From positions 248,001 to 312,000 of the forward strand of contig JASANH010000243.1 in assembly GCA_030248295.1 (NCBI GenBank): a stretch of DNA of 64,000 nt, read 5' to 3'. Below are positions 7,579 through 45,914 of the stretch, one piece after another. Position 1 is the first letter of the stretch. Every line of letters begins with the position of its first letter. A program made the position numbers and the translations under genes. The DNA comes from Mesodorylaimus sp. YZB2_4 (lineage: Eukaryota; Nematoda; Enoplea; Dorylaimida; Dorylaimidae). The notes under the pieces are model-generated. The model ran no database searches. It saw only the letters and a program-made list of their open reading frames with translations, and had not been told where the DNA came from.

Positions 7579-10500
7579 TCACACACGACAATTCTCATAA
7601 CAAAACGCTGTGACGTTGTGCGTCGCGTTGCCTAAAATTCCCAAATCCACAGAAACGGTTGCCGTTGCAAATTGAAGAATGACCAAGAAGTAAGTCACGA
7701 CAACTGATCCCACCTGAAACCTTCAACTATGCATATTTCTCAGAACTTTTCTCAGAAGTGCTTACGTTTAGCAACAAAGTAGCGTCAAATTTTGCCAGAG
7801 ATAAAACTGTTATCCCCACATCCTCCGACGCCATCCACTGCATCAACTGCATCAACGCGCGTCTACTTGCCTAAATAGAGCACCTAAGAGTAAGCAGAGT
7901 TTTTAAAAAGATTATTCTCACGTCGTTTATAGAAACACCAGAATCTTCGCAGGCTTGATCCTCATAAACTCTTCATAAACCAGATTCGCAATAATTGTTT
8001 GGGCTTTTGACTCTGAAACAGAAAAGGACTCCTGATGCAAAAAAGCTAGGTCCTAGAATAGGGCCAATATTCGACAGACCCAACCCAAAAAACCCACCTT
8101 TAAAAAAACTTGGCCAAAACGCCTGAAAACAGCTTTTGGTACATTCTGCAATGACACGTTTTTGAATCACATCTGTTTTGCTATCTTTCTTGGCTAAGAA
8201 GCACAAGATAATGCGTTCAAGAAGTATGTATTGTGTGGTAACTCGAAAACCTCTCTGGGAGAGTTAAAATCCTTGGGTTCCAGATGATGAAATCAGAAAG
8301 TCACTGAAAACTTTCAGCAAGGATCTCATCGTCAGTAGATGCGTATGTGTCGCTGGATTAAGATTTTTGGTGATGTGCAACCCGCAAAACATAATCCTGT
8401 GCTGCACGTCTCAAAAAGGCCTAAAACTGGAATCAGCCATATTTATATAAGTTTCTGTTGTCTGACCACTCGCCCGCCATTTCTGTACTTTATGACTTCA
8501 GAAACACTGTTTTACTGAGAATATATATTCTTTACATTTGTTAAAGATTTCTTCGGGCCTCAAATTTTAGGGGCCCTGGGGAACATTGACTGTAAGTGTA
8601 AAAAAGGAGCACAGGTAGCCAGGACGGCCAAGGTGACCGCAAGCTGCTTTGCAGTCTTTCAGAGTCCGAACTGTCGATCGTGTCAGCAATGATCTCGTGA
8701 ACTGATTGAACTCCATGCGTGAACACTAGAAACCATCACTTCCAGTGCTGGTCCAGTTTCATAAATTTTATCATGGTAGGCTCGATTACCCGAATACTTC
8801 TTTCAGACATGTATGGGGGCCTGGTAGGAGGATGAGTGAAAGAGTGAGCAAAGAGCACTGTTTTTGCCTAAAAATAGCACTAGGGGCCAAGGCTTTTGAG
8901 CAGTGCTTTGAATTTTCGACCATTATTTTATGGAACAAATTGAGTTCTGAATATTGGCGTGGACATACTGTACAGCGCTGATGTTTTTAGACAGGGTCAT
9001 TCGAGTGCCGCTTTGTAGTGTGTTCTTTGACTGATGAGCTGCTCATGCTATATTTCCTGTGTGTCCCACGATAGGAATAAACAGTATACAGTACAGTACA
9101 GAAACTGCCAGCGGCAGCGGTTTGGGATTTTTCTACCCGTATTGTTTGTTACTGCGTGACTAAACTCGATGCAGCGATTTGTGAACCATTAATCAATGCG
9201 CCAGGCCGTCGGTGACTCATTCAGAACCGTCGAGGTCCTCCGAGTGGAGACGGAAGCTGCTGCGGCGACGTACGATGCTCTACGCTCATGACGGTGGGTT
9301 TGGGCTGATCTTACAAGTGAGCGATTTCGAATGCACCCGGTCCTAAGATGCCCACGTTGGCAAACAGTTCCACTATCGATGGCGCAGTAAAGACTTCGGT
9401 CATCAGAGGATCCTTTACGAAGCACAAAAAGACACGACGGTGTCTCAACAGTCCTGGATCTTACCCACAGACAAATCCACAGACAAACCAAGTACCAGCC
9501 CTGGAGTCAACTCCTGGACTCTTCCAGTATGAACCAAAGGGAACGACGACCGCAGAGGCCCTCCGAGGGTATGCTAATCGAAGTCCCTGGACAGCACCTG
9601 GCTCGCCCCACAGTTCTGCCAATGGGCCTGCAAGGAGGCCTGCAACTGCCATGCAATCATACATTAGCCTGGCTGCTGGTCGAATGCACCCAGTCCTAAG
9701 ATGCCCACGCTGGCAAACAGTTCCACTATCGATGGCGCAGAAAGATCGAAGTCAACCAGAGGGTCCCATACACACCCACTCTGCAAAAAGGCTGGCCCAA
9801 CCCAACCTAAAACCTAAAACCTCAAAACCTGACTGGGTTTTGTGACTTTATGTCGGAGCCAGCGAATAAAGTGCCCTAATAGCTTGTTGTGATGCTCACC
9901 TCAGCTTTGAGTAGAATGGCTGGCGCTGCAGTGAATGCAAAAAGACTCGAAATCATAATCAGCCAATAAGTCAGGGAAAAGTAATTGGCTGAATTATTGC
10001 CACTGAGTGTCAGAACGAATAAATTTAAACACGCCGTTGTGATGAACAGAATCAATTGGAAAAAGCAAGAGTGTCTGAATGCATTATCCAGACACTCGAC
10101 TAAAAGTGACAAATGCGCGAAATCGCTCTGATACACTGCGATATTACGAGCTGTAAAAGAAGCTTCTGTTTCGTTTTCCAATTTCTTGCAATATTTTGTG
10201 AAATGCGCTCTGGCTAATTCGCACGAGGTGAAGAAGAAGATAATGTGGAAGATGGCGTGGATACCACCCGCGGAGCTGACCACTTGAATCAGGATTGTTA
10301 ATGCTATTGGTGGCAGAGACGTCCAATAGGCCGTTCGATCCCGTCGTTGTGGGAATCCACTTGTAATTATAGAAAAATTCTGCAGCGTGATCAAAATAAT
10401 AGTAGTTGCGCCATATGTGCCAGCAAACATGATGATCCCCAGTGTGCCACGCCGCCAACGATCTAGATCTCTTTTGGTCATCTTTGAACGAAAGATAAGC

Positions 10501-10886
10501 TGGCGCGATTGTTCGTAAAATCCTCCTGGGCGTACTAGAACACTGTTTGCATAATTCAAAGCCACAAAGCATGCTAATTGGTCCAATGTGAAAAAGCAAA
10601 TAATAAGTGCGCATATTGTATGGAGATCAAAATCAATACCCTGATAAACTTCACTCGGGTGGGGTATCATGGATAATATCATCAGCACTACACCCAGCAA
10701 GTAAATAGCAACAATCGCCGTGAACGTAAGCAGACGAAGGGCCGAGAGACAACGTGACTGGGCTTTGTTGTTTTGACCGCACAGTAAATGACATCCCGCG
10801 ACAGCGCCCAGGAAGTCTAAGACTTGATGTAGTCTTTCTGTGGTGTCAATAGCTGAGAGTTGCGCCAGTTTCGTGGACGAAGCCAT
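7579..10886 (-). CDS. Gustatory-receptor-like seven-transmembrane protein
   Basis: Three exons in phase: 10886-9900, 7870-7766 and 7713-7579, about 408 residues, the usual length of insect-type gustatory receptors. The long first exon holds six hydrophobic segments. The last exon contains VVVTYFLVILQFA, matching the C-terminal TYxxxxxQF signature of this family of ligand-gated channels. I chose the ATG at 10886 (MASSTKLAQ) because the frame above it lacks another ATG. A related degenerate copy at 15961-17379 has the same exon layout and supports the model. The 2-kb intron (7871-9899) holds a LINE 3' end and dispersed repeats. The weakest point is assigning the two small exons to this first exon rather than to a lost neighbour. 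The ligand is unknown. Confidence 0.7.
8600..9080 (+). mobile_element. LINE (non-LTR retrotransposon) 3' end fragment
   Basis: The translated stretch at 8745-8981 contains LVQFHKFYHGRLDYPNTSF and TIILWNKLSSEY, features of the C-terminal end of CR1/Jockey-like LINE polymerases. The first block is closely similar to LKLVQFHEFYRGRHDSP in the minus-strand LINE at 11.5-12.6 kb. It lies in the intron of the receptor gene on the opposite strand. Confidence 0.65.
9326..9746 (-). repeat. Dispersed repeat, two tandem partial copies
   Basis: The segment 9326-9625 is the reverse complement of 5881-6185. The segment 9668-9746 repeats its outer end (CGAATGCACCC...GATGGCGCAG). The plus-strand reading frame starting MPTLANSS (9348) stays open for 165 codons. 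The repeat sits inside the receptor intron. Confidence 0.75.
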
Positions 10887-11474
10887 GCCTGCGATAGAGG
10901 GATGGGAGTGACGGCGATTATCTGCACTCACAAACTCTAATGGAGCGCAGGAAATGCAAAGCCTTATGAACCCTTTGTGTGCGAAAATTAAAAACCTTTT
11001 ACTTTAATAACCGTGTTAGTAATATTGGACCTAGTAAATGATGCAATGATAATTTCAGAAATTCTGTGTCCGTCATGCTCAACGATAATTAAGGTTCCGA
11101 ATGTTAAAGAACGTCTGATGTCCGAACACGATTTCCCACGCTTGTTGACAGGATGAAAGAAAAACCTCACTCGTCGTCAGTGGCTGCATACAGTAGGCAT
11201 CCCGATACTGTAACAGACTGGATATAGGATAAAATTTTATGGAATCCGTGAATAATTTGGTTGCGCTGTCCCCAAAATGTTTTTTTTTAAATCTCATCCG
11301 GTATTTTCGGTATGAAAAAGCTCGTTTTATCACGTTTTGAGGGTTTTATACATGCAAACAGAACTCTGCGCACTTTGGGAATATGAAATACGCCGTCAAC
11401 GATCAGGCGGGTCTCTTAAACGGAGTTCGTGTTTGTTTAGGCTGTCTCGCGCATCTTTCTGCAGGGCTGATCAT
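10887..11474. other. Intergenic, upstream of the receptor gene
   Basis: No gene recognised. A minus-strand frame of 84 codons (11333-11079) shows no recognisable domain and I do not call it. Confidence 0.45.
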
Positions 11475-12640
11475 CTACAGTAGTTTATGGATGCAGCGAT
11501 CGTGGAGATTGGCTGGGCTCGTCCTGGATTCAACCGAGTGAGTGACAGAGATGTGATCCATAAACTCTGGCTTACCAGGCCACCGTCGAGATGCTCTGAG
11601 TGGAGAGGCGGCAGCCAGACGAGTGGGCTGTCCGGCTCTCGAACAAGAACATGGTTCAGCCATCCGGCCATTGTCCAAGGATTCCTTGCTTATAGCCTTG
11701 CTTATAAAGTTCGGCTGCTGGCCAGCTTGGCAAAACGGGGAATCGTGCCTACCACGATAAAATTCGTGAAATTGAACTAGCTTTAGTTCCTGTCGCCTCC
11801 GAGCCAAAGGCTGCCATCCCACAACTGCTAAAAGGTCGTCAAGTTCACCGGACCAATCGTTGATAAGAAGACGGAGAGCGTATCTCTGGGCGCGCTCCAA
11901 GTCTCCATGTCAGCCTTCAAAATCGGATCCCATGCCTGACAGGCGCACTTCAATTTGGATCGAATACAAGCCGAGTACACCTCTCGAAGAGCATGAGGTG
12001 ATGCGTGCTGACCAATTTTGCGACCAAGTGCGCCCAACACTCTCCGTGCACTAAAAGAAATTTTCGCCACGTGCTCAGAAAATTTCATGTCCCCCCAGAT
12101 ATTGTGACCCCAAATAAGTGACTTCATCAACGAAAACAAGCCGCTGTCCATCAAGGGTCAATGCAGGCATCCGGTCGAAGGCAACATGGTTGTACCGAAA
12201 CGCAATGGCCTGACTTTTCGACACATTGAAGTCCAGGAACAGGCGCACAAAAACTCCATAGCTGGTTGAATCGTATTTTCAGGGCGCTCCATAGAAGGCA
12301 ATGGGACGAATAAGCATGTATCGTCCGCGTAACACTGAAATCGAAAATCAGGGAATTCCGATTAGAAGGCTCGCAAGACCCGAGAAGTATCCTGCTTATA
12401 TCTCAACGACCATTCCATTTTCGAGCTGCAGGTTTCAAATAACAAAACCCCAGCTGAGGGACCAGCTTCACCAGGACACTAATCTTACAAGCCGTTCCTC
12501 GAACAAGGAGATGCTGGTCTCCCGTCATCATGTTCACCCACCAATAGAGCTGCAGTGGCTCACGTCAGTTCACTCGCGTACGCAGGATTTTGGGGTCATA
12601 GGAATCCAACAAAACAATTGCGTGAATATGCTATAATTTA
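11475..12640 (-). mobile_element. LINE reverse transcriptase fragment, frame-broken
   Basis: The minus strand encodes the C-terminal half of a non-LTR retrotransposon polymerase in several frames. Near 12340-12315 is CYADDTCLF, the YADD catalytic motif of reverse transcriptases. It is followed by VSKSQAIAFRYNH and VTYLGSQYLG, then by FSEHVAKISFSARRVLGALG and a block ending ALRLLINDW. Frame changes between these blocks show that the copy is dead. It is related to the fragment at 8.6-9.1 kb. Confidence 0.8.
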
Positions 12641-12689
12641 GAAATCAAGGATGAGCGCCAATCGTCCGAGTGGGGGTGGGGTGACCTGA

Positions 12690-13075
12690 CCTGACCGACC
12701 TGATCTCTGACTGTGAGTCGACAAGAGATCCGGTCAGAGCTCGATGTCATGTGCTAACAGATGATTTCTCAGTTCCATCACAGTCAGACTGACATGCCGA
12801 GTCAGACTAGCTGGGGGCACTGGGTGCGCTTTTGAAACGCCAGGATCTGTCGACTCGAAACCAACAGGCATCATGTCGCAGTGTCTTCAAAACGCTGTGC
12901 CGACATGCTCATTGCTGACGATAAAGGCTGACCCCAAGTGGAAAAGTAATCTTTTTGGGTTGGGTTTGAGAAAAAGTTATCTTCCACAACCCAAAACCAC
13001 TCTGCCGAAAAACCCAACCCAAAAACCAAAAAACAATGGGTTGGGTTTTGGGACCCAATGTCGGACCGGGGTCAA
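12690..13075 (+). repeat. Dispersed repeat matching 52605-53025 in inverse orientation
   Basis: About 390 bp including TTTGGGTTGGGTTT, CCCAACCCAAAAA and GACTGTGAGTCGACAAGAGAT. The reverse complement occurs some 40 kb away at 52605-53025. The CCCAACCC-rich part also echoes short stretches near 8080 and 9790. No coding sequence recognised. Confidence 0.7.
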
Positions 13076-13079
13076 ATGA

Positions 13080-13851
13080 GGCAGTGCGTTAGAAGACCAA
13101 GAGTAGTGGAAGCAAGTTTGATTCGCCGAATCGATCACTCGTCAAAAGGGCTGACGATTGCGCAGTAAAAATCTTTCCAAAATGAGCCCAAGTATTACGA
13201 GGAATGATCGTAAGAAGTATCAGCTCATAAAAGAGATATGTTTTTTCACACATTCGGACAGTCAGTGACTTGTATTGCTGCAGAATATCATTGACCGCTA
13301 CGCTGCAAGCTTCTGAAAGCTAGACTGGAACGTTTTGTAAGAAGCTCATCAGTCAGTCATTTGGGTGCGTCTGCGCCACTAAACGAGTCTCCGCTAGGTT
13401 TATTAGAATTTACAAGAAGCCAACGCTGACAATAACTTTTCGGAGATAATTCGATTTTGAACGTTGTTGATTTACAGGTCCGGAGAGAGAGATCATGAAG
13501 AAACATTCAGCAGAATCAGCCTCTGACAAACTTGGAAAGAGCGCTGACCTCCGGGAAACAGACTCGTAAAGGCATATCCTAGGTGAAACAATAAATGAAT
13601 GGAAACAGTCATGTTGCAATTTTATGCAAGTTACAAGCTTGTTACGCGATTATAATAACACTTATCGCACATTTCATAATGGACTCCTGCAAGAAAGTGT
13701 AAAATTCCAGCAAAGTGTACAGTAATCAATGCAGGCGCAGCTGCACATTGCAACCTCAGTCGGGTGATGATATCCGCAGCTGGAAGGCTGGTCATCAGCG
13801 GTCGCTGTGAGGGCTTCAGTTCGGTGAGCAGACGCCGTTCCACAAGTCGTC
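13080..13851. other. Intergenic, upstream of the REEP gene
   Basis: No gene or repeat recognised. It should contain the REEP promoter and 5' UTR, but I see no clear core promoter element. Confidence 0.45.
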
Positions 13852-20083: not shown

Positions 20084-23000
20084 CTAGACCGTCCTCCTCC
20101 TCACCCTCACCCACACACATACACTGGCAAACACAAAGACATGGAATAAAATGATAGACACGATTAAAATGGTGAAAACGCGATAAGTAAAACAAGTCTG
20201 ACTAGATACCTGAGTACTCGCATTGAGCCTCGGCGAAGAGTCTGAAATACAAATCGATCATGTTTTGTTTTTTGTTTCAATTTTTTACCTTTTGTCGCCG
20301 ACTCCACATCGAAAACTGTGATTGGATCAGAAACAACATCGAGCGATTCGTATTCAGAATTTTCGGCAGGCGGCAGCGAAAAGTGTGAATTCCGTCTCCT
20401 CCGATTCCTCGAACACTCGGGCGGCTGCAAAGATGACAAGTCGAAATGTGAATACCATTTGTTACCTGACACCCGTACTGTGATTTTCGAACATCCGCCA
20501 TCCACCTTTGAGCAGATGGTCACCTGGCATTGGAACTGTAGGACGGGTTTGTCAGCGAACTTGAATACGTGTGTTTCTTGGTAAGCAACTCGAAGATTGT
20601 CGCCTTCGTCGTAAATAGGGGTGGCCAGGACGTGAATATCCAATCCACACCTAGTTTTGTAAGGAAATTGAACATGCTTGATGAAAACACATTTTCTCGA
20701 GACCTTACCCTTTCGAATCGAGCAGCTGTACTTTGTTTCCTTCTCCATCTTCGACGTAGCAGCTATGTACTAGCATACCGAACAAGTCTTGATTTTCGTC
20801 TGAATAAAGATATCACGACAAAAATGAACAAGTTTGCGAAATCGAAAGGCTGCCTACTTTGTTGTACACACTCCCATCTATGGAATATGGCCTCACCAAT
20901 GATGGCATATCGAACAAGTGGTCCATTGGGACCTTCTTTCCTGAGTGAGTAGAAGCAGGTAGGCATGGGCACCGTCCGCGTGATAAAGTCTGGTGTCAAC
21001 ATGCTAAAAGCACTAGGTGACGTCAGGTTTCATCCAAATGCAATGCGGGTTCGATCCCCTCCTGAGTGTAAAAACGCATAGGTTTTCTGTGTTCCCATGC
21101 AAAAATGACACGCTCGGGGCTCGAGGGCACATGTCACAGGCACTACTACTTGGTACACAAAAATTTAAAATCACGCAGAAACATTTTACCTGACTTCTAA
21201 ATCTGTTTGCACCGTTTTTTGTGCTTCCATATAGAAGCACTGCACTTTTATGGCTTGATCGACTTTGGTTAAGAATCGAGGATGAAAACTAAACACAACA
21301 ACCGTCTCCACAAAAACGCCTCGAGGATTCAGCTAAAGAGGTAATTTTACAAACAGCGAATCCAGAAAAGATGCATTCTTACTGATCGATATCGACGAAC
21401 ACCACAATTATTGAAGGGTACAGTGATGCCTATCAAGGTCGGATTTGAAAGGTACGAGTCGGCAGACATACGACACGCCTTGTTGTGGAAGAATCCCTTG
21501 ACAAATACATTGCCTTCGAAGGGGTATTTCGTCCGGGCTTGGATACCAATACCATCGTTGGCGCACGAAATATCGAGCAGGTTGCCTTCTGAAAGAGAAT
21601 GCATTCAAAAGCAGGGACATAGCTCCCTTTTTTGAATGACATTTTCCAGTCATGATTCATCGACATATACTGTACTTTATTCTGTCAGTTCTTTGGTTCT
21701 GTACGCGTGTGTGCAGTCTAACTGCTTCGCTGAAAGTGAAATCAATCAGTCATAGCACACTGGGGAGCCTAAGAATTGTGGCTACAAATATGAACTAATG
21801 GGCGGGAAATTCCATCGCCTTCGTCTGGCTTCTCTTTTTCTCTTTGTTTCGTTTCCTGTTTAAGCACATCACCAAACTCTGACCAGACTTTTTCGATCAG
21901 GGAAATAATATGACGCTGATATAAAGCTGTTTTGCCTAGGCGCTACCAACAGTTTTCGTCGGCCAAAAATGGCCTATTGAAAGTACTCATGATCAGATCC
22001 CCTCTTTCAGTTCCTCCTCGAGTGGACTTACCTTGACGTATGCATTTGGATTTAAAGTTTCTACGCAACTGCTGTATGCAGTTCCTCTACGGAGAGACAT
22101 TCATGTTCTGTGGCAGTATGTTCAGTCACCATGTCGTGGGTGCACTTACTACATGAAGTTTTCGCTGGAGAGGAGGGACTGGACTGGAAAGAAACATTTT
22201 TTAGTCTATTCCCTGTCTATTCAAGCTCTTCCCTGTCTGGCATCATCGAGATCTCCCCAGGTCCTATGCATACAGTATGTAGATATTTACACTGGGCCTA
22301 CAGTACAAGCCGCCTGTTCAAGTAACCAAATACACCCCAACTTGATCACTAGTAGATGTCATACTCACGATATGTGGTTTTGCACAGCTCCTTGGCCAGT
22401 AAAGCTGAGAAAGGTTGGTCGAGGTTTTCGAAAGATTCGACAGTGAAAACTCGCTGGTGTACACCACCAGTGATTTGCAGCAGTTGTTCCATATCGATGA
22501 AATTCGTAACTCCAACTGCGTACACAAGCACACCCATGGATCGAAGCTGTTCAGCGGGCTCAACGACATCGTCCTGTGCTCTACCATCCGTGATGACAAT
22601 GGCAGTTTTCACAGGCCCTCCTCCACCAGACACCGAATCGCTTTGCACAAGTTCATAAACGTTTTCAGATGCGAATCGCAACGCTTCACCCGTCCTCGTC
22701 GTACCAGTCATATATTTCAAGCTGGCAATGGCAGGCTAAATAAGGTTTGATTTGATAAGATCGCGCACAAAAAGAAACAATGCATTTTACTTTCATCGAA
22801 CTCGCGTTTAGATGTTTATCAAAACCAAATTCGAGAACTGGCTCGTCGCTGAACTGCACAACGGCCACACGTGTGCCATTCCAGCCGATATTCATCCGAT
22901 CGACAATCATTTGGACAAAATCTTTTTGATGCTCGAATGTGGCGTCACCAATCGACCCGGACCCGTCCAAAATAAATGCCAGATCAATAGCTTTGCCGTT

Positions 23001-23331
23001 TCTGCATTCTGAAAGACGAAATGTGACCTCACCTCTGCTGGGGCCCTCAGCCATGATTCAGGCTCATGATTTATGGGGTCGTCCCTCAGTTCCAACGGTA
23101 CCCTCCTCACAAACCAAAGACTCACCAGTTTTATTTTCGCTGCCAATCAATGCGTTATCGATAGGAATGGAGAAACTTGCAGAAGATAAGGCGAATATTA
23201 TCTGAAGAGAAAATTCAAATGATTTCCTTTGGTTTATTGAAAAGAGGAAAACTCACCAAGAAAAAGTAAAGATAATTTTTGTCGACGCGACGTCTGCCCG
23301 TCGCGTTCGTCGGCTGCTTGAAGGCAGTCAT
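20084..23331 (-). CDS. Cuticlin-like protein with vWA and ZP domains (CUT-6 architecture)
   Basis: Eleven exons on the minus strand: 23331-23257, 23201-23126, 23014-22791, 22735-22369, 21588-21383, 21332-21190, 21003-20870, 20799-20709, 20650-20479, 20424-20289 and 20241-20084. They sum to 1782 nt (593 residues) with all phases agreeing. A hydrophobic signal (KNYLYFFLIIFALSSASFS) is at about 18-36. The vWA domain spans about 55-240 with MIDAS motif DGSGS (65-69), a Thr in TRTGEAL and ITDG. The ZP domain follows (about 255-500: ISCANDGIGI, NPRGVFVETVVV, MPTCFYSLR, FGMLVHSCYVEDGEG). A furin-type site RNRRRR (502-507) and a C-terminal transmembrane segment (about 561-583) complete a secreted, matrix-polymerising ZP protein. 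The vWA-plus-ZP layout is that of nematode CUT-6, which acts in the cuticle. One ZP cysteine may be lost at the exon 7/8 junction. Confidence 0.9.
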
Positions 23332-25744: not shown

Positions 25745-28700
25745 ATGGATGATCTGAAGGCTGACTTTTCGCAGTCTTCTCTTCATTCAATATTTTCACC
25801 TGGGTTTGCCACAAGAACATCGGCAAAAGTGGCCTGGGCTCTTGCCTTTTTTGCCTGCCTGACAGTATTCGTTACTTTTGTTGTCCAGTCGACACTGTTC
25901 TTCTTCACGTACCCTGTCGGAACGTCAACCAAAGTAAGCCATGAGTCTGCGTGTTGTTTGTTGTGAAAGGACAGAGAAAAAAGTTTCAGATCGAAAATGG
26001 TCCATTGGAATTCCCATCTGTGTCCGCGTGCAACTTGAATCCGTACAAGGTCTCTGCTCTGAAGCAGAAAGCACCCAACGTTTATAGAGAGGTAAGTTAT
26101 TTCGTATTCATATGTTAGTTACATTCACTCTGTTCGAGATCTGTTCAAATCCTATGTCGAAACCATATTTGCACTGCATTGGCTGGCTTCAGTAGAGTTT
26201 ATACAATACAATCATGCGCTCTGTGCACCAGCAACTCTGTTGGCCTTTTCTAAATCTTTCCGTTTTTCAAAGGTTCTAACTAGCTCGAGTCAAACAGTGA
26301 ACAGAGAACGGTAGGAGACAAGACAGAGAGGCTTTTGCACAGATGCAATCAGTCCACATGACTAGACTCCTGCATTCTGTTTCCATCGTCACCGCACTAC
26401 ACTCTCAACTTTGCACTCACGCTGTAGCAAACGGACAGGAGTGGTTTGCTGGACAGTGTGCAGTAAAAACAGTCTCCCCACCCCGAAACAATCACATCCT
26501 CTCATGAAGGCAAACAAACATTGATTTTGCGCTAAAAAACTCTGGATGACGTTTGCTTTTACAGCTTCAACAATACAGCGCACAAATCATCGCGAAAAAC
26601 AAGTCGTCTCGAAAAAAGCGACAGATTGAACATGCAGTCCGAAATATAACAGAAGAGCGAAGTTCGCAAAACTCCGCAGCCGTACCCATCGAGGTCATTG
26701 AGAATGAAAGAGCCTTGGCGAACACAGAAACATTTTGGCTTGAAACTGAGGGAAACATCCGACGTCGCCGATCGATATCTGCTAGTCAAGGTATGACATG
26801 TAATACCCGTTTGTTACAAAGGCCGACTGCAAGACGCCAACTACTTGGCTATGTCATTGGCTCCCCAAACTACAGTATAGGGTCGTAGCAAAAGGAAGCT
26901 GTATGTTTTACTGATATACAGTCGTCTCCGCTTAATTAATGTGTTTCGCCAGGGAATGAGACTGAAGGTGGCTATGATTGTAATACTGTACAAGTACAGT
27001 AGATATTATTCCGCTCTCCGTCCCTTAAAATTATCTCACAGCTCATGTCTTGCAGATGTGCCAGACAATGTTGGCAAGGTATTTTACACCGCATTTGCGC
27101 CAAATCCATACAATTGCACAAGAGAGCTAGCGTTAGCGACCACATACGCCACTCCATTCAACGTGACTATCACGACCCGAGACAACAGTTTTACATCGGT
27201 GACAAAAATCGATAGCTCGAAAGTCTACATTGTCAAATTTACGTCTGAGTCATCAGTGGGCATAAAACTGGTAGCCGATTACGACTTCATGGTTTACAGT
27301 ATGTTGTATGAGAAGAGTGGTTCGGCGGAAGGCTTCCTGGTTCTGCCAGTTGATGTACTCGGCACAGAGTACATTGTAACTGGCATCGATAAATACAGGG
27401 ACAACAACATCCTGATTGTGGCCACTCAAATCGGAACATCGATATCAGTGTCTGGCGGCCTCAATGGAAGCTTCTTGGCGAACGAGAGAGATGTAGTTGA
27501 TTTGAGGAATCAGACTGATCTCACAGGAACAAGAATAACATCGAATTATCCTGTAGCAGTCATTATTAGCTACGGATGTCTCTACTTTCCTGCCGGCTGC
27601 AATTGGTGTGATCATGCGGTTGAACAAGTAGGTCTTGTGCAATGTGCTGAACCCTTAGGATGATAAGATCTCCGAATATGTCATAAAAATTTGACTGAAC
27701 TTTTTTCTTATCCTGTCAGCTTACACCAACAATCAAATGGGGCATGCGGTTCGTGCTGTCTCCATTCCAAGCAACGTGCACGTCAACTCCGACTTGCTGC
27801 AAGAACGCAACGTATTGCGCGCAGTGCTACGAATTCTTCAAGGTTGTTGCTTACACTGACGGCACAGTTGTGAACAGGATTGGAACGTTTTCCACGGAAA
27901 CTTTCACTCTGAACACTCGCGAATGGCGGATGGTCTTGACGAGGCAAGGCGAATATTCGTACCTATCTGCGAACAAACCATTGCAAATCGTCCAGATTAT
28001 GACTGGAACGTTTTATATTGATCCAGGTATACTTTGCTGTGTACAAGTACAGTGGCTTGGAATAGGGCTTCACAGCACAAAGCTTCGAATTTGAAATTCC
28101 CGCTTAGGCTGCTTATGACAATACCTACATAAAGGATACATATGACAATACCGGATAGAGCAGATCTTTGCGCGATCTTATGCAAATTTTGAATGAGGCG
28201 GCAAAGATCAATTTTTATTACTAAATTTATCGAGGAGGGATTATTAAGTGAATTTTCAAATACATACGCTCGCGATGATCTCAATTATTAATTTGGATCG
28301 CTAGATCAAATACTTTAGATCTGCTCACCAATCTGCTGTAGATCCGTGATCAGATTGTCATAAGCAAACTCCCTAACATAATTGCGCTGCTCAAATCTTT
28401 GCTGACACTGAAATAATCTATGGGGTATGGACACAGAGATGTCATCATTAGAGTGCTCTGCATCACTCATATTTTTATTTGCATGGGGCTCGTGACTTTC
28501 TTTGCACTAGGGTGTGTGGACGGGACCTTGAGTCATGGCCTGAGCTATTGCGCCAGCTTTTGATCACACATCCAAATTCAAAGGTTTTAACAATAAGGGC
28601 ATGACGCCAGCCATTTTTCACGCCTGATTTATCTGGGCACAAACTTTGCTTTTTCTCTTGCCATGATACTGTGGAAGAATAAGCCTCATGAGTAACTCAT

Positions 28701-31700
28701 TAAATCTCAGCTCGATATCCCGAGCCTCATCGTGATTGATAAAGCTATTCATCAACGAAACGTAAATTGCTGTGAATTTTGCGTGATCCAATTCTTGAAG
28801 CCCAGCTGCGGGGAAACTCAACGAACTGATGGCTAGACGATTGTCTGAAGAACAGCAACCAATCAGTTCGCTTAGGATACCAATTTATCTGAATCAGACT
28901 GGATTCGGCAATCGATCGAATCCACCTAAATTGCGACCACCGATCCGACCGACCGATCGGATCCACCTAAACATACACACATATACAAAAAGCATACGGT
29001 GTCTGAATTTTCTGTGCAAAAGTTTTTCTTTCTCGTTCAAGGGAATGGATCCCTATCAAGCGATCCATCTTTGCTGATGATACCTCCAACTGACGGATTC
29101 ACCAACATTTACCACATTGTTTCTTGCAACAAAAAGTTCACCGACCACTACCTCAGACTCGCGATTGACACAAGCAAGGCGACAGGGCTCCTGTTAAATG
29201 GACTGCCTTTCCTTGGTCTGACTCCCGCAAATCCTGTCCCAAACACAACCCTGAGCGTTTACCAGTACCGGATCCCATGCTCTGGCGTGTCCGAGTCCTT
29301 TGTCATATCACACAACGATGTCGACGTCCTCTTTGGGGTCACAGCGTACGGCTTTGGGGACGACATCAGCTACGCTTACGTGGCTGGAATGCGTTTGGGT
29401 GATGGCTCATTCTTTTGCACGCCTGTTGCCGACTCTGATCCACCTGATGGGCTCGACAACGACTGTGATGGCTGGGTGGATGAAGAAAAACGCAACTTTA
29501 TCGATGATGACAATGATGGCAGAATCGACGAGGACCTTGCAGCAGTGATTCCAGTCATTAGCATCAACAATTCACTGATCACAACTTGCGATCTCATCAC
29601 TATCCCACCTCCCGTCAACAATTCAGAGCCTGATCTGGCCGAGGCGTACGGCGATCCAAGATGCACCCCGTTCAACCTAACGTACAAGGACATCAGTGAC
29701 AACCAGTCCAACTGCTCGACAGTCATCAGCCGCATGTGGCTACTAATCGATGACTGTGGCAATGTTGCAGACAACGTCACCCAGGTGATCACACTGATAC
29801 CACAAATGGACAACTACACAGCGCCTGCCCAAGCCTACTTAAACACAACAGCGGACTTAGCCAACATGAATGCCACGGGGATACCGAGTGTAGTGGCGGC
29901 TTGCGACTTGATTACGGGCGGAACGATCGTGCAGCCGTGGACAAACACCTACACTGACGTATTTGTAAATGCCACTTATGTCAATCGCACGTGGACAGTG
30001 AAACCAATGTGCTCAAACGTGACCACCGAATTGCATCAGGATATCTTCATCAGTAAGCAGAGTACATTTCACACAGTCGCCTCTTTTCGTGCTGACTTGG
30101 TTATGGTTTTTAGAAATGGAGACGACGACCTCGAGTACAACCACGTCAACAGCTACAACGACCACCGTTGCAACTACTACAACTACGTCCTCCACCACCT
30201 CCACTGTCACAACCACGACAACAGAGGCCACAACGGTCTTATCGTCAGTCACACCTGTCAGCACGAGCACAGCACCAACCACAGCACCAACCACAGCACC
30301 AACCACAGCACCAACCACAGCACCAACCACTATTACAACAAGTACAAGCGTGCCAATAGCAGCGCCCACCACGTCTGACGGCGCGATCTCTACAACAACT
30401 ATGCTGACAAGTGCGCAAACCTCACCAATTAGCGCAAGCGCAGGATCAACCACTGTTCTGACAAAGACAAGTGCGCCACCAACAACAGGGCCCACAACAT
30501 TCGCCAACACGAGCACGACATCAACAACTGTGATGACACGTACGAGTGCGCAAACCTCGGCCTTTGACTCAAACACAACACCAACCATTTTTTCGACCAG
30601 TACGAGTGCGACAGCGGCATTCACATCTATAAGCACAAGCTTTGCACAAACTACTGAGTCGAGAATTATGAGCGCACAAACCTCGTCTGTTGGCTCTAGC
30701 TCCGCATCAGTCATTTCTGGTGCAGGCAGTACTAGCTCATTATCGCCCTTCAAATCCTCGAGCACAGCCACGAGTACATCCAGTCAAAGCACAAGTGCCT
30801 CTCTGATGACATTTGCATCAACAGACACTGGTAGCGACACAACAGCTTCGACAGAAACAACCTACAGCAGCCCCGTGTCAGTCGAACAGTCTAGTTCATC
30901 GATGGCCGCATCCATCACCGCCTCAGAGAACACGTTCACAACCTCCAGCAACAGTGCCGCATCAATATCAGGCGCAGTCACATCTACTTCATCGACACTT
31001 TCAAATAGTGTCGTTTTCACAACCATATCCACAGTCCCTAGGTCATCGAGTGAGCCAAGTACCACGAGCAGTACAGCCATGCTAGCTTCGAGTGCAATGC
31101 AGAGCGGCAGCACTGTTTCTTTCCAAACCTTCCAACCAGCTTCTGCAAATTCTACAATCATGACATCATCGCTACCACTCAATAGCCATTATTCAAAGCA
31201 AGCCATTACAAGCACTCCACGGTCAACTGATCCGGCATCGCAGACCATCGCAACTTCCACACCGACTAAACCCACGGTCCCGCTATCTAGTGCGAGCAGT
31301 GCACACTTCACGTCTTCTCCCGCTTCCTCAGCAACCTCCTCTCCATTTACCGGATCGTCGGGTGCTACTGTGTCAAATCCATTGTCAGCAGCGACTTCGA
31401 AAGGCTTCAGTGCAGCTGTTACTTCAGAGGCTCCCACATCGAGATCCAGTATAACCATCAAAATCACGTCGGAATCAGCTATACTCTCTGCGACAACCTC
31501 AAAGTCACAAGCAGCATCTCCTCAAATCATCAAATCCACAAGCGACAGCTTATCAACAATCATAACCACTTATGCTCAAAAATCATCCCCGTCATCATCA
31601 TCAAAAGCTTACAGCAGCAGTGCAGCCAGTACAGTGTTCGCAGATAAAACCACAGTTAGCTCAGCAACGTCCACACCTCTAGAACGACTTGCCAGTAGCT

Positions 31701-34700
31701 CAGCCGCAGTGCCGACAACGCGGCTGCAAACTGCTAGCTTCTCATCACTCACCTCAACGCACAGCCAGTCTGTTTCAAGTACGCCGTCCACCACGCAACT
31801 AACCAAGCAAACTGCATTACCGTCCGCTGAGACCACACATATTCCATCATCTATTGAGAGCAAAAAGCAAACAACATCAAATGCTGACTCAAATTTTATG
31901 AGCAATGCAGTGCACACATCCAGCGCGGCCAACTTACCCAGTAGTAGCAGCCCCGAGACGATGGTTTCACTGACAAGCCTTCGGTCAAGTCTTCACGACA
32001 CAGGAACAACTAGCACATGGCCAGCAGCGTCGACATCGGGAGAAAGTAGCAGCCCTCAAACACTTCTAGCCAGCAATTTTGAGTCAGCAAGCAAACCATC
32101 TAGCGTGTCGGCAATGCTCAGCAGCTCCTCATTTCCAAGGTCTGTTCTTTCAACAGCATCGCTGTTCAGTTTGGCCTATCCAACAACTGATCGTGATACT
32201 ACCACGTGCCCATTTACACACTTCCTGTCAACAGTCAGCGCCATAAGCTTGCCGCTCAGTCAATTGCACTTTCCAACGTCTACATTCAAAACACCAAGGC
32301 GCAAAACACATCCAACAGTGGCAGTTCTGCAAGCAGAGGATGGACGAGCAGTGTCAACACTAGCTGTGGAGTCCAGTATGAATCCCACAACCCCGCAAAG
32401 CACCAGAGGGGAGCAAACAGAAAACCTTGGGGCAGCCACGACTGGTCCTGTTTTCACAACTGAAGAGTCGCCTGTCCTTGAACCATTCTCAACCGACATA
32501 GCGTCATCAGTTCCATCAGAGAGTCCAACAACGATCAAGCTAGGCATAAAGAGAATGCGCACACCAGGAACCAATGTGCAGCCACAAATCTTCGCTGGAA
32601 CTGCTAAGTCGACCACAATCGGCCGGAGCGCTCCAACTGATACGAATGAGCAGACTAGCATAACGACAGTTTCCTTACCATCAACTCAGCCGCTCAGCAC
32701 AGATGAGCTAATAGCTATAAGCGACTACGATGAAGCTGTGGGTTTGAATATTGATGTCGAAAGCTTGACCGACCGAGCAACCTCATTTGAGCATCCATCG
32801 TCTCTGCCAGCAAACGTTGTTGGGCTTACTTTTTCAAATCAAGAACAGACATCAGCTCATTCAACTAGAAAACTTGGTGTCATGAGAAAGGCAACTCCAG
32901 GATTCATGCTTAACTTAGTCGACGAGGCCCAAATTACAAACTTCGAGAGGATAGGAAGCACAGTTCCTGCTCTGCAATCTCTGCTGGACTCTTCGATCAG
33001 CGCCAATCAAAGTTATGAGACAGCGCAGGCACAGGCAGCTCTTCTGTCAGACGCTGACTCGACCAGAGCTGTTGGAAATGCTGGTTTTCTGCATGAAGGT
33101 GAGGCTCCCAACACCAGCTTTCCTCATAATCCCTCGACGTCGCCACAGGTAGATTTGGTGACATCGACCTCACCCAAACCCCCCACCGGATCTGCTGGGA
33201 CATTTGAATCAACAGTCCCGCATATTAGAACCACACCTGCGCCCACCCTCACTGCACTTGTAGACACCAAATCAACTTTATCTTCCCGAACATCTGCTGG
33301 AGATATTTCACCAGGCAAAACAGAACCTTTTGAGCCTCCACCTGTCTTTGCGACTTCTGCAGTAACCAAACTTTCAAGCTCCCATTCAATCCTTCAAACG
33401 AAACAGCAAGTGCAGAGCTTATTTGATATTTTCGCACCGAGTGGCACTGTGCTATTCGGTCTAGAGGAAGCTACAAGTGCAATAATTGACCCAAAAGCTA
33501 AATTAACTGGGGCCGAGCAAGAGATGTCGGCGTTCTCAAACCCACTATACACCGACAGTGATGTCACACCCCTTTCCACATCGCCAGGCACACGGAGGTC
33601 CAGATCCGCCATTCGTCACAGCTCAAGCACAAGATCAATTTATAACGATGTCGACACTTCCAGCACAGGAGGGACAAAAGCAGCAAGTTCACAGGCCATG
33701 AAATTAGGAGCATCAAGGCCAATAATCACGCCTTATACTCAGTTATCCGAACTGACTGCGCTGTCATCAGGGCCTGATGTGCCTTCCGCAGCCCCGACTT
33801 TCAAGTCAAACACCATCATCCACCGCAGGCTCACAGTGCAGCCGAATGCAGAAAGGTTCTCAGCGCATGTTTCTAATAGTGCACCATACATGTCTACAGA
33901 AGGGCTTCTTTCCTCAGTTGGTACATCGAACCAGCCGATAGAACTGCCATGGACACCTCGAATGAAATATACCTACTCGAGTGCACCACTTATTGCCGCT
34001 GCACTAGCAAACCAATACAGCAACATCGTATCAGTGAAAACAACAACTTCACTCTCTCCCGCGTACCTCCTCCCTGGACAGCCATTGCTTAGGCGGCCCG
34101 TTAAAGGACGCACTTTATTTTTTGCCATTGAAACATCCAACCCGCCTGATCTTATTCCAACTGTTCCTCCGAGCCCACGCAAACTCCCTGTTCTTTTCTC
34201 TGCCGCAACTAGCCTTTCCGATGCATCTGGACAGTCTAAGCCAGACAATGAGTTGCAAGGCATGAAAGCTATGAGCCCTCGTGTAACAGATTCAATCCAA
34301 TTAGTTTCAAATGACACACACAAAAATGACCCTATGATCAGCAATGCTGCTCTGAACCCCACACCTGAAGAGACAGAGCAAAAAGAACCCAGCAGTCAAA
34401 ATAGAGGCATCCCAGGAGCCGCCAGTATTGATCAAAGCGCAGGTCCAACAGCAACTGCAAAGACTGATTCCAGTATTTATGCCGATTATTCCAAGCCAAA
34501 AGACACAGATCCAGAAGATCCCGACCAACAGAACCAGGGATCAGCAACTACAGTCGCATTGCAACAAATGGCGCCATCAATCGTGAATGCGTCGTTGCCC
34601 ATACTTGCTGCAACCATGACCCAGCCAGATTACCTGACTCAAAGCGAGGCCGCACCAGCTTTCGATGCAAGTATTGACGAGGGCAAACTGCTGATTTCTA

Positions 34701-36473
34701 AGCAACAGCCTTCGACCCGAAACTTTGGCATCAACGACCAGGTGCCAGAAGATCGAGCGAAAGAACGTCGGACGACAGACGGAGATCCTAACATACCTGA
34801 CATTGCGGACGAAACTAGAGAGCTTACCGGCAATTTTGGCGAGGACGACTTCAATCTGACGATTAGTGTAAGTTTATAAACTTCTTAACCACTGCTTTCA
34901 AAAAGTATCAGCTTCCAAGCTGCGCATTCTATGGCTTCTTGTTTTCTCAGGCGGACGACATGGACACATTGGCATGGGCGAGCCAGATGCAAGATGCACT
35001 GGCCTACTTTATGAAATCTGACGACCCCGACAGCACAATAGCATCACTGCTTGGATACCAGCTCGACGAGTTCATCTTCTGGTGTCGATACGCGGGGCAG
35101 AAATGCGCGCTGTCCAAGTAAGGTTGCCATCCTCCTCTAGCTGCCAGCCATAATTCTGCTCTGTTGAGCAGGGAAGTCAAAATGTTTTCTGACGCAAACT
35201 ACGGAAATTGCTTCACCTTCAACTGGATTCCGCAATCACATTTCGCAAGTCGAGCTGGCCAAAGGCTCGGTCTGAGAATCATCTTCAACACACCCTCCGA
35301 CGATTACTTGCCCTTCACGTTGCCAACGGGCTTTGCATTGGCCTTTCATGAAGCGGATGAAGAACCCATGATCCAGTCTCTCGGAATCAAAGGCTCTCCT
35401 GGAGTGCACTATATTTATGCAGTGTCAAAAGTAAATGTTACACAGAATAACCAGGCCGACGTGACGGGCGACGGGCGACGGGCGATCTGAATTCTGATCT
35501 GATCATCCTTTCAGATGACAGTGTCCCGTGCCGGCGATCCATATTCTCCCTGCATAAATAGCCAAGGCGATTCAGAGAACTATTACGTAAACAAGTCCTA
35601 TTCGGTCGAGGTGAGCTGAAAAGTTTGTTGATCACTTCGCCTGTGACGATGGTTTTTTAATCCCAGACATGCCTGGCTACTTGTTATCAGAGAACTGTCA
35701 TCATACACTGCGCATGCGGGGATCCTCGCTATCCCTTGCCCGCTGGTCACTCCTATTGCAATATCTCTCAAAGTAGGTTTTTTTCTCGCTTCGACAACTG
35801 ACGTTACAGTAAATTCATGTTCTGCATGGTTACAGAGTCATGTGTCGACCAAATGGCAGCAAACGCGTCCGATTACATGACGGTTCATCGATGTGGATGC
35901 AAGTCGGCGTGCAGGTGCCGCTAAGGTTTTTAAAGATGTTTCGAGAAATCAAATCCTGCAATTTTAGCAGCACTCATTTCGAATTCGTGCAAACCAGAGC
36001 TTTATGGCCAACAGATGGTTTCACAGTATGTTTAATATTGACAGCTTTTAGAAATCTGTGACGACATTCTTCGTTTTTTCAGCCTCCTAAATGCGAAGGC
36101 AAAGTGTTGTCGGACCTTGACGAGTGCAAGAATAGTTTCAGGTAAGCTGTTGTGCTGATCAGCCATCGACTCAGTTTTATCGCCTGCATCTGCTTTCAGA
36201 GCAAATTTTAGTCGAGTGGACATTTACTTCAGTTCAATGGTTGGCACAGGCTTGGAGGAATATGCTGAATATACGGTACTGTAGTCACATCCATCCAGTG
36301 TGGCCTATTTGGGGAATAAGGTGCTTTTGTTTCAGATAGCAAATATTGCCTCCGACCTTTTCGCCAATTTCGGATTTTGGCTGGGCTGCTGTGCCATTTC
36401 TGTTATCGAATTGGTTGTCTTCCCTGCCGTGGCCTCATTCAAAGCCATATTTACAACATTGCAAAAGAAGTAG
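25745..36473 (+). CDS. DEG/ENaC sodium-channel subunit with giant IgGFc-binding and mucin ectodomain
   Basis: Sixteen exons join in phase into 8199 nt (about 2732 residues): 25745-25933, 25990-26091, 26565-26790, 27056-27627, 27720-28026, 29042-30052, 30114-34867, 34951-35117, 35172-35430, 35515-35610, 35667-35772, 35836-35914, 35968-36025, 36083-36141, 36200-36275, 36336-36473. Residues 1-97 are a DEG/ENaC start: SSLHS, TM1, then FPSVSACNLNPYK. Exon 3 has basic sites RKKR (113-116) and RRRR (163-166). About 173-590 resembles the IgGFc-binding N-terminal domain. 597-635 is acidic (DSDPPDGLDNDCDG, DDDNDGRIDED). 803-2387 is Ser/Thr-rich mucin. 2388-2732 is the rest of the channel: GNCFTFN, DPYSPC, IIHCACGDPRYPLP, cysteine-rich part and TM2 FGFWLGCCAISVIEL. 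Trimeric sodium channels of this family open to ligand, acid or force. The mucin implies a glycosylated apical coat. The join across the mucin rests on phase and needs RNA. Confidence 0.85.
30271..30330 (+). repeat. 12-bp tandem repeat in the mucin domain
   Basis: Five perfect copies of AGCACCAACCAC at the DNA level, coding for TAPT units. It lies at the start of the Ser/Thr-rich domain of the channel and is a likely site of length polymorphism. Confidence 0.85.
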
Positions 36474-37400
36474 GACAAGGAAAATAATGCATGTCGAGAA
36501 TGTGGCAAAACCTGACCCGCCTGCTATAAAAATCCAAAGTTTGGATTTTAGGAAAAACTGTCATAATGGTGTCATATTATTTAACGCTATCAAACTATGC
36601 GTGGATTTGTTGCCTTCGCAGTTTTGAGCTTTTCAAAATGTGTTGGCCAAAAGTGGCTTGGATAAGAATGTATGTTGGACTCAAGAACAGCGAGATCCAT
36701 TGCAAAGCTTCATCAGGCAACGTGGCTTAAAAATTGGAGTGCAAAGTTTGAAATCCCAGACACGTGCGGGTAAACCTAAACTTTTTTTCTGGGCTTTTTA
36801 TGGCCCGTGAACACATAATATGATGTTATAGTCCTCAAGTGTTTGACCATGTTGAGCTTACCATTTTTCCCTTAGCTGCAAACTGGTGGTGATGGAGTAT
36901 TTTGAACGACATTGCTGGTGTCTAACTAAACTGTTCTTTAAAAAATGTTTTTGATCTCTCCTGCGCAAGCTTAACTTAACACACATTACACGCACTAGGA
37001 TAGTACACAGGTGCATAGAATTCATGACGAAGGACTTATTCTGCCAGCAACACATGAAGAAACAGAAACATAATGAAAACCATGAACCCAGAGCGGGAGT
37101 CCAACCTGCACCCAACACATGGATGTTCCAAACGAGATCAACCTCGTGTAGTATACAGCATCCATGCAGAGCATGCCATCAATGTACAACATATGTCGTC
37201 AAAGGATGTTACTAAAAAAATTTATTTGAACCTTTTGCATTTCTTTAAAATCTAGCAACTACAGTATTTAGGACCAATTCATGGCACGCAGACAAATGGC
37301 AGTGAAATAATAAAAATTGTAGCGTGATTCAACCATTCTCCGAGAAACGGACTAAAGTAAATCAATTTCTACATAGTTGCACTTGATGGCAGCACGATGA
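36474..37400. other. Intergenic between convergent genes
   Basis: The 3' ends of the channel gene (+) and the collagen gene (-) face each other. No gene recognised. A stretch near 37085-37105 resembles a degenerate B box in reverse and may be a SINE remnant. Confidence 0.4.

Positions 37401-45914
<8,514 letters not shown>

Follow-up and report, generated by a model that had tools for sequence, protein, structure and literature searches.

A nematode gene family in which a DEG/ENaC-type channel is split by an IgGFc-type domain and a long Ser/Thr-rich segment, a candidate built-in extracellular tether

The window analyzed here is a stretch of 64,000 nucleotides (nt) from the dorylaimid nematode Mesodorylaimus sp. 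YZB2_4 (assembly GCA_030248295.1, contig JASANH010000243.1, positions 248,001 to 312,000; C114:248001-312000 in our contig numbering). At 25745-36473 on its plus strand lies a 16-exon gene for a predicted protein of 2,732 amino acids (aa), in which the two halves of a DEG/ENaC-type channel, with transmembrane segments TM1 and TM2, enclose an IgGFc-binding-type domain and a long Ser/Thr-rich segment. Its features are, from 5' to 3':

25745-25933, plus strand: exon 1, cytoplasmic N-terminus and TM1, aa 1-63, with SSLHSIF at the position of the HG motif of ASIC1
25990-26091, plus strand: exon 2, palm strand after TM1 (FPSVSACNLNPYK), then the start of finger helix alpha1
26565-26790, plus strand: exon 3, remaining alpha1 region and furin-site linker, aa 98-172, phase 0 in and phase 1 out
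26610-26621, plus strand: proximal furin-type site RKKR, aa 113-116, placed by phmmer alignment with gamma-ENaC SRKRRE
26760-26771, plus strand: distal furin-type site RRRR, aa 163-166, 10 residues ahead of the IgGFc homology
27056-27627, plus strand: exon 4, first part of the IgGFc-binding-type domain
27720-28026, plus strand: exon 5, middle of the IgGFc-binding-type domain
29042-30052, plus strand: exon 6, in which the IgGFc domain ends near 29352, then one MopE+HYR_4C-type unit and some 85 more residues
29446-29487, plus strand: MopE-type acidic motif DGLDNDCDGWVDEE, below threshold (16.6 bits, 18.8 bits in a second search; cut-off 27)
30114-34867, plus strand: exon 7, Ser/Thr-rich putative tether, 1,585 aa with one Cys
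34951-35117, plus strand: exon 8, alpha2-like helix (LAWASQMQDALAYF) and start of the DEG/ENaC C half
35172-35430, 35515-35610, 35667-35772 and 35836-35914, plus strand: exons 9-12, Cys-rich ectodomain
35968-36025, 36083-36141 and 36200-36275, plus strand: exons 13-15, last part of the Cys-rich ectodomain
36336-36473, plus strand: exon 16, TM2 (GFWLGCCAISVIELVVF), short cytoplasmic end and stop

An exon-by-exon rebuild gave 2,732 aa and one stop, with phases in agreement at 15 of 15 junctions, and so bears out an earlier note on this DNA that had joined 16 exons into one frame free of phase errors. The start codon lies in the context ATC ATG G, and introns measure 53-92 nt except for introns 2 (473 nt), 3 (265 nt) and 5 (1,015 nt). 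Scored with a leave-one-out matrix, the splice sites were mostly good; the exceptions with low scores are three donors (introns 7, 12 and 15) and one acceptor (intron 8). Despite its low score, the intron 7 donor reads GTAAGT on the intron side, and ENaC homology crosses junction 12 despite the low-scoring donor there. Up to position 36900 there is no canonical AATAAA; one ATTAAA lies in intron 5, within the IgGFc-coding part. Exon 7 (4,754 nt) is free of stops in its own frame, while the two other forward frames contain 59 and 77 and the three reverse frames 30, 100 and 108; the probability of such a stop-free stretch at the same base composition (log10 P of about -29.5) rules out a chance open frame.

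A Pfam search, which the earlier note had proposed as a check, returned ASC at both ends of the protein and IgGFc_binding between them, all above their cut-offs, in keeping with its claim of one gene for a DEG/ENaC channel split by IgGFc and mucin parts. ASC profile positions 5-125 matched residues 11-129 (exons 1-3; 2.5e-12) and positions 136-455 matched exons 8-16 (7.9e-48), while IgGFc_binding (PF17517) covered aa 265-569 (2.5e-43, 148.9 bits, cut-off 25.6). Exons 4-6 belong together because this one match spans all three. When exons 1-2 were joined to exons 8-16, the resulting 442-aa core, which holds 19 Cys, matched ASC positions 4-455 of 455 with 210.5 bits, versus 47 + 164 bits for the halves apart, and aligned with ASIC1 over residues 5-425. 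Among solved structures, the best match of the C half was beta-ENaC (1.5e-37), and the N part matched gamma-ENaC (1.3e-6) and ASIC1 (4.5e-6); the FPxVTxCNxNP-type motif after TM1 (FPSVSACNLNPYK) aligns with both ENaC and ASIC1. With a full ASC match, TM1, a Cys-rich ectodomain and TM2, the predicted protein can be assigned to the DEG/ENaC superfamily, although two pore hallmarks are altered (see below).

Because exons 1-2 and 8-16 alone form a complete ASC channel, the protein reads as a compact, ordinary channel that appears to have been opened at a single point by exons 3-7 (6,870 nt, 2,290 codons), which enter and leave in phase 0. By alignment, this insert is predicted to sit between finger helices alpha1 (exons 2-3) and alpha2 (the alpha2-like start of exon 8, whose Trp is kept in eight of nine loci). 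This is the position of the GRIP domain of ENaC, which passages of PMC6197857 and PMC8791634 place between alpha1 and alpha2 and call unique to ENaC. According to passages of PMC6197857, the alpha2 Trp of ENaC touches the P1 segment of GRIP, and alpha2 contacts the main gating elements. Other DEG/ENaC frames in the genome have unusual layouts of their own. A 1,015-aa open frame at C215:88704-91418 matches ASC 6-289 and, some 490 codons further on, 292-452, a large insert at another place, and frames of 733-992 aa at C617:25268-27595, C64:153457-155244 and C223:65252-67726 match ASC without about positions 180-275 or more, possibly reflecting other domain replacements.

Within the insert, the acidic DxDxDG segment described by the earlier note is present as the sub-threshold MopE-type motif, and it is better seen as part of a larger unit: together with the following part, which resembles HYR_4C (Pfam, 0.4 for the window unit), it forms a single copy of the unit that the paralogous locus C11 carries in 27 copies. 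NCBIfam returned only a sub-threshold acidic repeat. No solved-structure homolog of the IgGFc part was found by sequence at E 1, its 33 pattern matches in prokaryotes yielded no confirmed relative, and no vWD domain was present among the Pfam matches of the protein. EGF families were absent from the Pfam results at E 1 for exons 1-6 and 8-16 and at E 10 for exon 7, and from a pattern search; Rfam gave no match in the window at gathering score. Exon 6 is under purifying selection, with a ratio of nonsynonymous to synonymous substitution rates (dN/dS) of 0.165 between the window and C79 (336 codons); the exon 4 alignment of this pair had lost register, and its dN/dS was discarded. IgGFc domains with no C-half match within 40 kb were found at seven more loci (C14:758617-760673, C175:77829, C151:21777, C41:351772, C49:373576, C257:63083 and C18:674325), which are possible free-standing source genes of the insert.

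The earlier note described this gene only; it is one member of a family. A search of the genome (145,146,385 bases in 1,067 contigs) that used PF00858, PF17517 and three segments of the protein as queries identified at least 13 loci at which an N half, IgGFc and a C half follow one another on one strand: the window gene on C114, C79, two on C1 (C1a at 1.96 Mb and C1b at 2.50 Mb), C90, C387, C11 and six on C233; such counts are lower bounds. All 13 loci having IgGFc followed by a C half also have an N-half match upstream. Six of these copies, with two partial ones, form a tandem cluster on the minus strand at C233:3935-94248, where C233c (58-66 kb) has only a short C-half match, an N half at 21.4-21.7 kb has no assigned C half, and C233e (C233:41001-49800, L061) combines an N half, a 2,087-aa open frame (29% Ser/Thr) and a C half. 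Besides the window gene, we read C79, C1a, C90, C387, C1b and C11 nearly whole and, on C233, the C233b copy as well as parts of five other copies and of C233e. Identity to the most conserved C-half block of the window ranges from 84% (C79) down to 38% (C11). Nested or fused neighboring genes, considered as a source of this arrangement, are made very unlikely by the same order in the paralogs.

Splice signals at junction 7-8 were present in all five copies examined (window, C79, C1a, C90 and C233b): a GT donor (GTAAGT, GTAAGG or GTGAGT) ends the Ser/Thr-rich frame, and a pyrimidine-rich AG precedes exon 8. The intron 6 donor GTAAGCAG and acceptor TTTTTAG are likewise kept in the window and C79. 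Open frames in C79 and C90 (2,199 and 2,090 aa) that run from the IgGFc end into the mucin were considered as single exons and dropped, because the C79 stretch retains the signals for splicing of intron 6 and that of C90 resembles it; the two stretches are probably introns that lack stops by chance. A C387 open frame of the same kind (12284-13705) was dropped as well.

The segment encoded by exon 7, hereafter the leash, had been described as a mucin domain. It spans 1,585 aa with 36% Ser/Thr and 7.8% Pro, a long Ser/Thr/Pro-rich region of the kind that would qualify as mucin-like, yet strong mucin character is confined to its first half (50% Ser/Thr in the first 698 residues). Ser/Thr-rich leashes of about 1,840 (C79), 1,700 (C1a), 1,750 (C90), 1,450 (C233b) and 1,310 plus 370-420 aa (C387) were found in paralogs, these lengths being open-frame lengths and so upper bounds, and the six mucin-type leashes have 34%-40% Ser/Thr in the main exon. 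Their sequences are mostly unalignable. Identity to the window leash was 26.6%-28.3% for C1a, C90, C387 and C233b, compared with 26.0%-28.6% for locally shuffled copies, and only C1a exceeded its own three shuffles, by 0.5 points. The C79 leash reached 31.3% (shuffles 25.8%-27.6%) with one local match of 129 aa (2.3e-4), although the exons 6 of the two genes are 82% identical. Leashes of C1a (C1:1960-1969 kb) and C90 (226-238 kb) are 79% identical, the two being recent copies; their dN/dS of 0.74 is not relied on, since the low leash dS (0.12 versus 0.41 in exon 6) possibly results from gene conversion. At C11 (C11:1108975-1123519, L051-L053) the leash material has been exchanged altogether: a 4,016-aa open frame with 221 Cys and 27 DNDC motifs spaced 141-145 residues apart encodes 27 tandem MopE+HYR_4C units of about 143 aa in place of mucin (HYR_4C 7.1e-11 summed, single units all below the Pfam cut-off). 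Kept length and composition, free sequence and exchangeable material are what a spacer or tether predicts, as judged from these comparisons.

Exactly two RX[KR]R motifs occur in the 2,732-aa protein, both in exon 3 (P 0.005 for at least two in shuffled exon 3). For the family, 11 exons 3, including that of the window, were delimited without regard to the motif, by splice score and homology alone, and they fit the phases of the window exon. The exon was the top-scoring candidate in C11, C1b, C233b, C233f, C233g and C233c; in C79, C387 and C1a it ranked second after an unrelated candidate but starts like the window exon, and in C79 and C387 it was also found by tblastn. For C90, the longer form was taken because it resembles C1a, although a shorter one that lacks the site outscores it by 0.7. 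A distal RX[KR]R was present in 9 of the 11, at a distance of 4-6 residues from where the exon ends, against 0.84 expected from shuffles, and none of 200,000 simulations reached nine. A first count of 11 out of 12 was set aside, as the motif had in part guided the choice of those exons. A proximal RX[KR]R occurs in 5 out of 14 loci read (window, C79, C387, C1a and C11, which thereby carry both GRIP-like polybasic motifs), and C90 has GKKR. These counts show conservation within the family; no repeated origin is claimed, because paralogs are not independent.

We propose, with a probability of roughly 0.48, that the protein is a subunit of a trimeric DEG/ENaC-type channel with a built-in extracellular tether that works by force-from-tether. 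Its insert would comprise, in order, the furin-site linker, an IgGFc-type head, the MopE/HYR unit and the long Ser/Thr-rich leash. In the secretory path, furin-type convertases would cleave directly behind the distal RRRR, yielding a 166-aa TM1 fragment and a 2,566-aa remainder that starts 10 residues before the IgGFc homology, and the two would be held together through the palm; cut ENaC pieces likewise remain associated. This would leave the IgGFc head as the free N-terminal tip of a leash anchored at alpha2, with a maximum contour length of roughly 0.4-0.6 micrometre (at 0.25-0.36 nm per residue). Copies with a proximal site might undergo a second cut that frees a short peptide, as in ENaC. 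The presumably glycosylated leash may let the head bind matrix, cuticle or mucus, and a pull on alpha2, a gating element in ENaC, would open or modulate the channel. The earlier note described the mucin as inserted in the ectodomain; the distal site makes a loop fixed at both ends less likely as the only topology, and a single attachment point for the mucin is possible.

Several observations weigh against a tethered channel of this kind. Cleavage, binding, force gating and conduction are predictions from the genome sequence. Neither head, leash nor site is universal: Pfam did not detect IgGFc in the two long frames of C233e, the leash of C1b, within a 195-aa open frame, is short at best, C233b shows only RRPR, the best exon 3 of C233c has no site, and in C233a, C233d and C233e the site lies in a fitting open stretch that is a provisional candidate for the exon. 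The HG motif reads HS in the window, and none of the 11 N halves read has HG (they show HS, RT in four, RI in three, RA, RP and NA); it was also absent at both of the readable loci (2 of 8) in a crude check of the other channels in the genome. The G/S-x-S selectivity filter is GCC in the window, and across eight loci its third residue is Cys in six, Gly in one and Ser in one. Conduction is uncertain because both HG and the third filter residue are altered, and the proteins may depend on partner subunits, have other conduction properties or carry no current at all.

These same losses (HG in 11 of 11 and the filter Ser in seven of eight copies read), along with an insert far larger than the channel and the fall in ENaC open probability on HG disruption stated in a passage of PMC10178586, favor a membrane-anchored mucin, in which the DEG/ENaC part would no longer conduct and would serve as an anchor, so that the protein displays a glycocalyx or an adhesive or protective coat at the cell surface. 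We consider this a serious rival, though less probable than the tethered channel. Against it, a plain anchor would have no need of a whole ectodomain, the C half is 38%-84% identical in its most conserved exon block, alpha2 and TM2 are recognizable, and exon 8 has a dN/dS of 0.23 (C1a versus C90, 52 codons); moreover, heteromers with canonical subunits are possible.

The position of the insert between alpha1 and alpha2, the paired RX[KR]R motifs in five loci and the alignment of the proximal RKKR with the furin site of gamma-ENaC also fit a protease-gated channel, in which an enlarged GRIP would keep the channel shut until cut, with head and mucin as passengers; ENaC is activated by double cleavage according to a passage of PMC8791634. 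Such gating seems improbable, as the proximal site is limited to 5 of the 14 loci read, the conserved leash length and the rebuilt repeat leash of C11 imply that the leash itself matters, and the likeness would have to be convergent, given that ENaC polybasic pairs evolved within vertebrates (as stated in a passage of PMC8791634). Finally, two nested genes, with the IgGFc and mucin parts encoded by a gene of their own inside an intron of an otherwise ordinary channel gene, the separate-genes outcome raised in the earlier note, are very unlikely: skipping exons 3-7 does keep the frame (phase 0-0) and leaves the complete 442-aa channel, a frame continued beyond exon 7 reaches a stop three codons on, and an in-frame Met lies in intron 3 upstream of exon 4, but the order is the same at 13 of 13 loci, splice signals are present at junction 7-8 in five of five copies and at junction 6-7 in the window and C79, no convincing signal peptide was seen by eye before exon 4, introns 6 and 7 are only 61 and 83 nt, and no AATAAA lies between the exons. 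Exon 3-7 skipping is possible as an extra isoform.

If the tethered-channel reading holds, a broader and more tentative one is that the family represents a class of force-gated channels carrying their own matrix tether in the pore polypeptide, with leash material interchangeable as long as it spans the distance. In such a class, a convertase cut would turn a looped insert into a free adhesive head on its leash, making an autonomous force-from-filament channel, and GRIP-like convertase processing would extend beyond vertebrate ENaC. According to PMC7958617 and passages of PMC10148893 and PMC9108448, matrix tethers are a standing model of how MEC-4 and ENaC sense force, one in which the molecules involved are still open, and PMC7958617 calls knowledge of DEG/ENaC matrix tethers scarce. 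The family offers a candidate tether within the channel polypeptide, of which the genome supplies at least 13 variants; the leashes read so far include short, long, mucin and tandem-domain types. A single construct would allow removal of the head, of the cleavage site or of part of the leash, so the force-from-tether model would be directly testable.

The channel gene lies among other genes in the window. Upstream, at 20164-23057 on the minus strand and pointing away from it, a gene encodes a VWA domain followed by a cuticlin C-terminal domain, reminiscent of CUT-6 of Caenorhabditis elegans. Downstream, a fibrillar collagen gene (COLFI and collagen-like repeats; 37853-41833, minus strand), unexpected for a nematode, ends towards the channel gene. 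A multi-transmembrane receptor-like frame at 9876-11003 (minus strand) matched the 7tm_6 odorant receptor family below threshold (20.1 bits, cut-off 25.8). The genome also contains 133 matches to PF01484, the nematode cuticle-collagen N-terminal domain, in line with a nematode source. PF00379, an arthropod cuticle domain, gave 0 matches in a search in which no positive control responded either.

Compared with known systems, the family shares the IgGFc_binding domain, and would share a mucus or adhesion setting, with FCGBP and other IgGFc-binding mucus proteins; those of the FCGBP type are secreted, whereas the IgGFc domain of the window is part of a membrane channel. Among open-licence PMC papers, we found none linking an IgGFc or mucin-like domain with a degenerin, DEG/ENaC or amiloride-sensitive sodium channel, and the titles and abstract starts of those on IgGFc-binding with sodium channels, or on degenerin/ENaC domain architecture, concerned no such protein; there is a chance that unnamed members are already in databases. 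EGAS-1 to -4 of C. elegans are likewise nematode DEG/ENaC proteins with an extra module (EGF plus ASC), and gave no current above water-injected controls when expressed alone, according to passages of PMC10424705; compared by description only, they differ in their EGF feature, which is lacking in the window protein. With ENaC, the best structural match of its C half, the window protein shares the insert position between alpha1 and alpha2 and the polybasic cleavage-type sites, but its insert is 2,290 codons long with an IgGFc head and a leash, HG and GxS are altered, and no similarity to GRIP was seen beyond the proximal site. The furin-type sites and the position of the insert bear on the claim that GRIP and polybasic regulation are unique to ENaC. 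The MEC-4/MEC-10 touch channel is also a DEG/ENaC channel for which a matrix tether is modeled; there, as described in passages of PMC9108448, the matrix proteins MEC-1, MEC-5 and MEC-9 are separate, whereas here the putative tether is part of the channel polypeptide.

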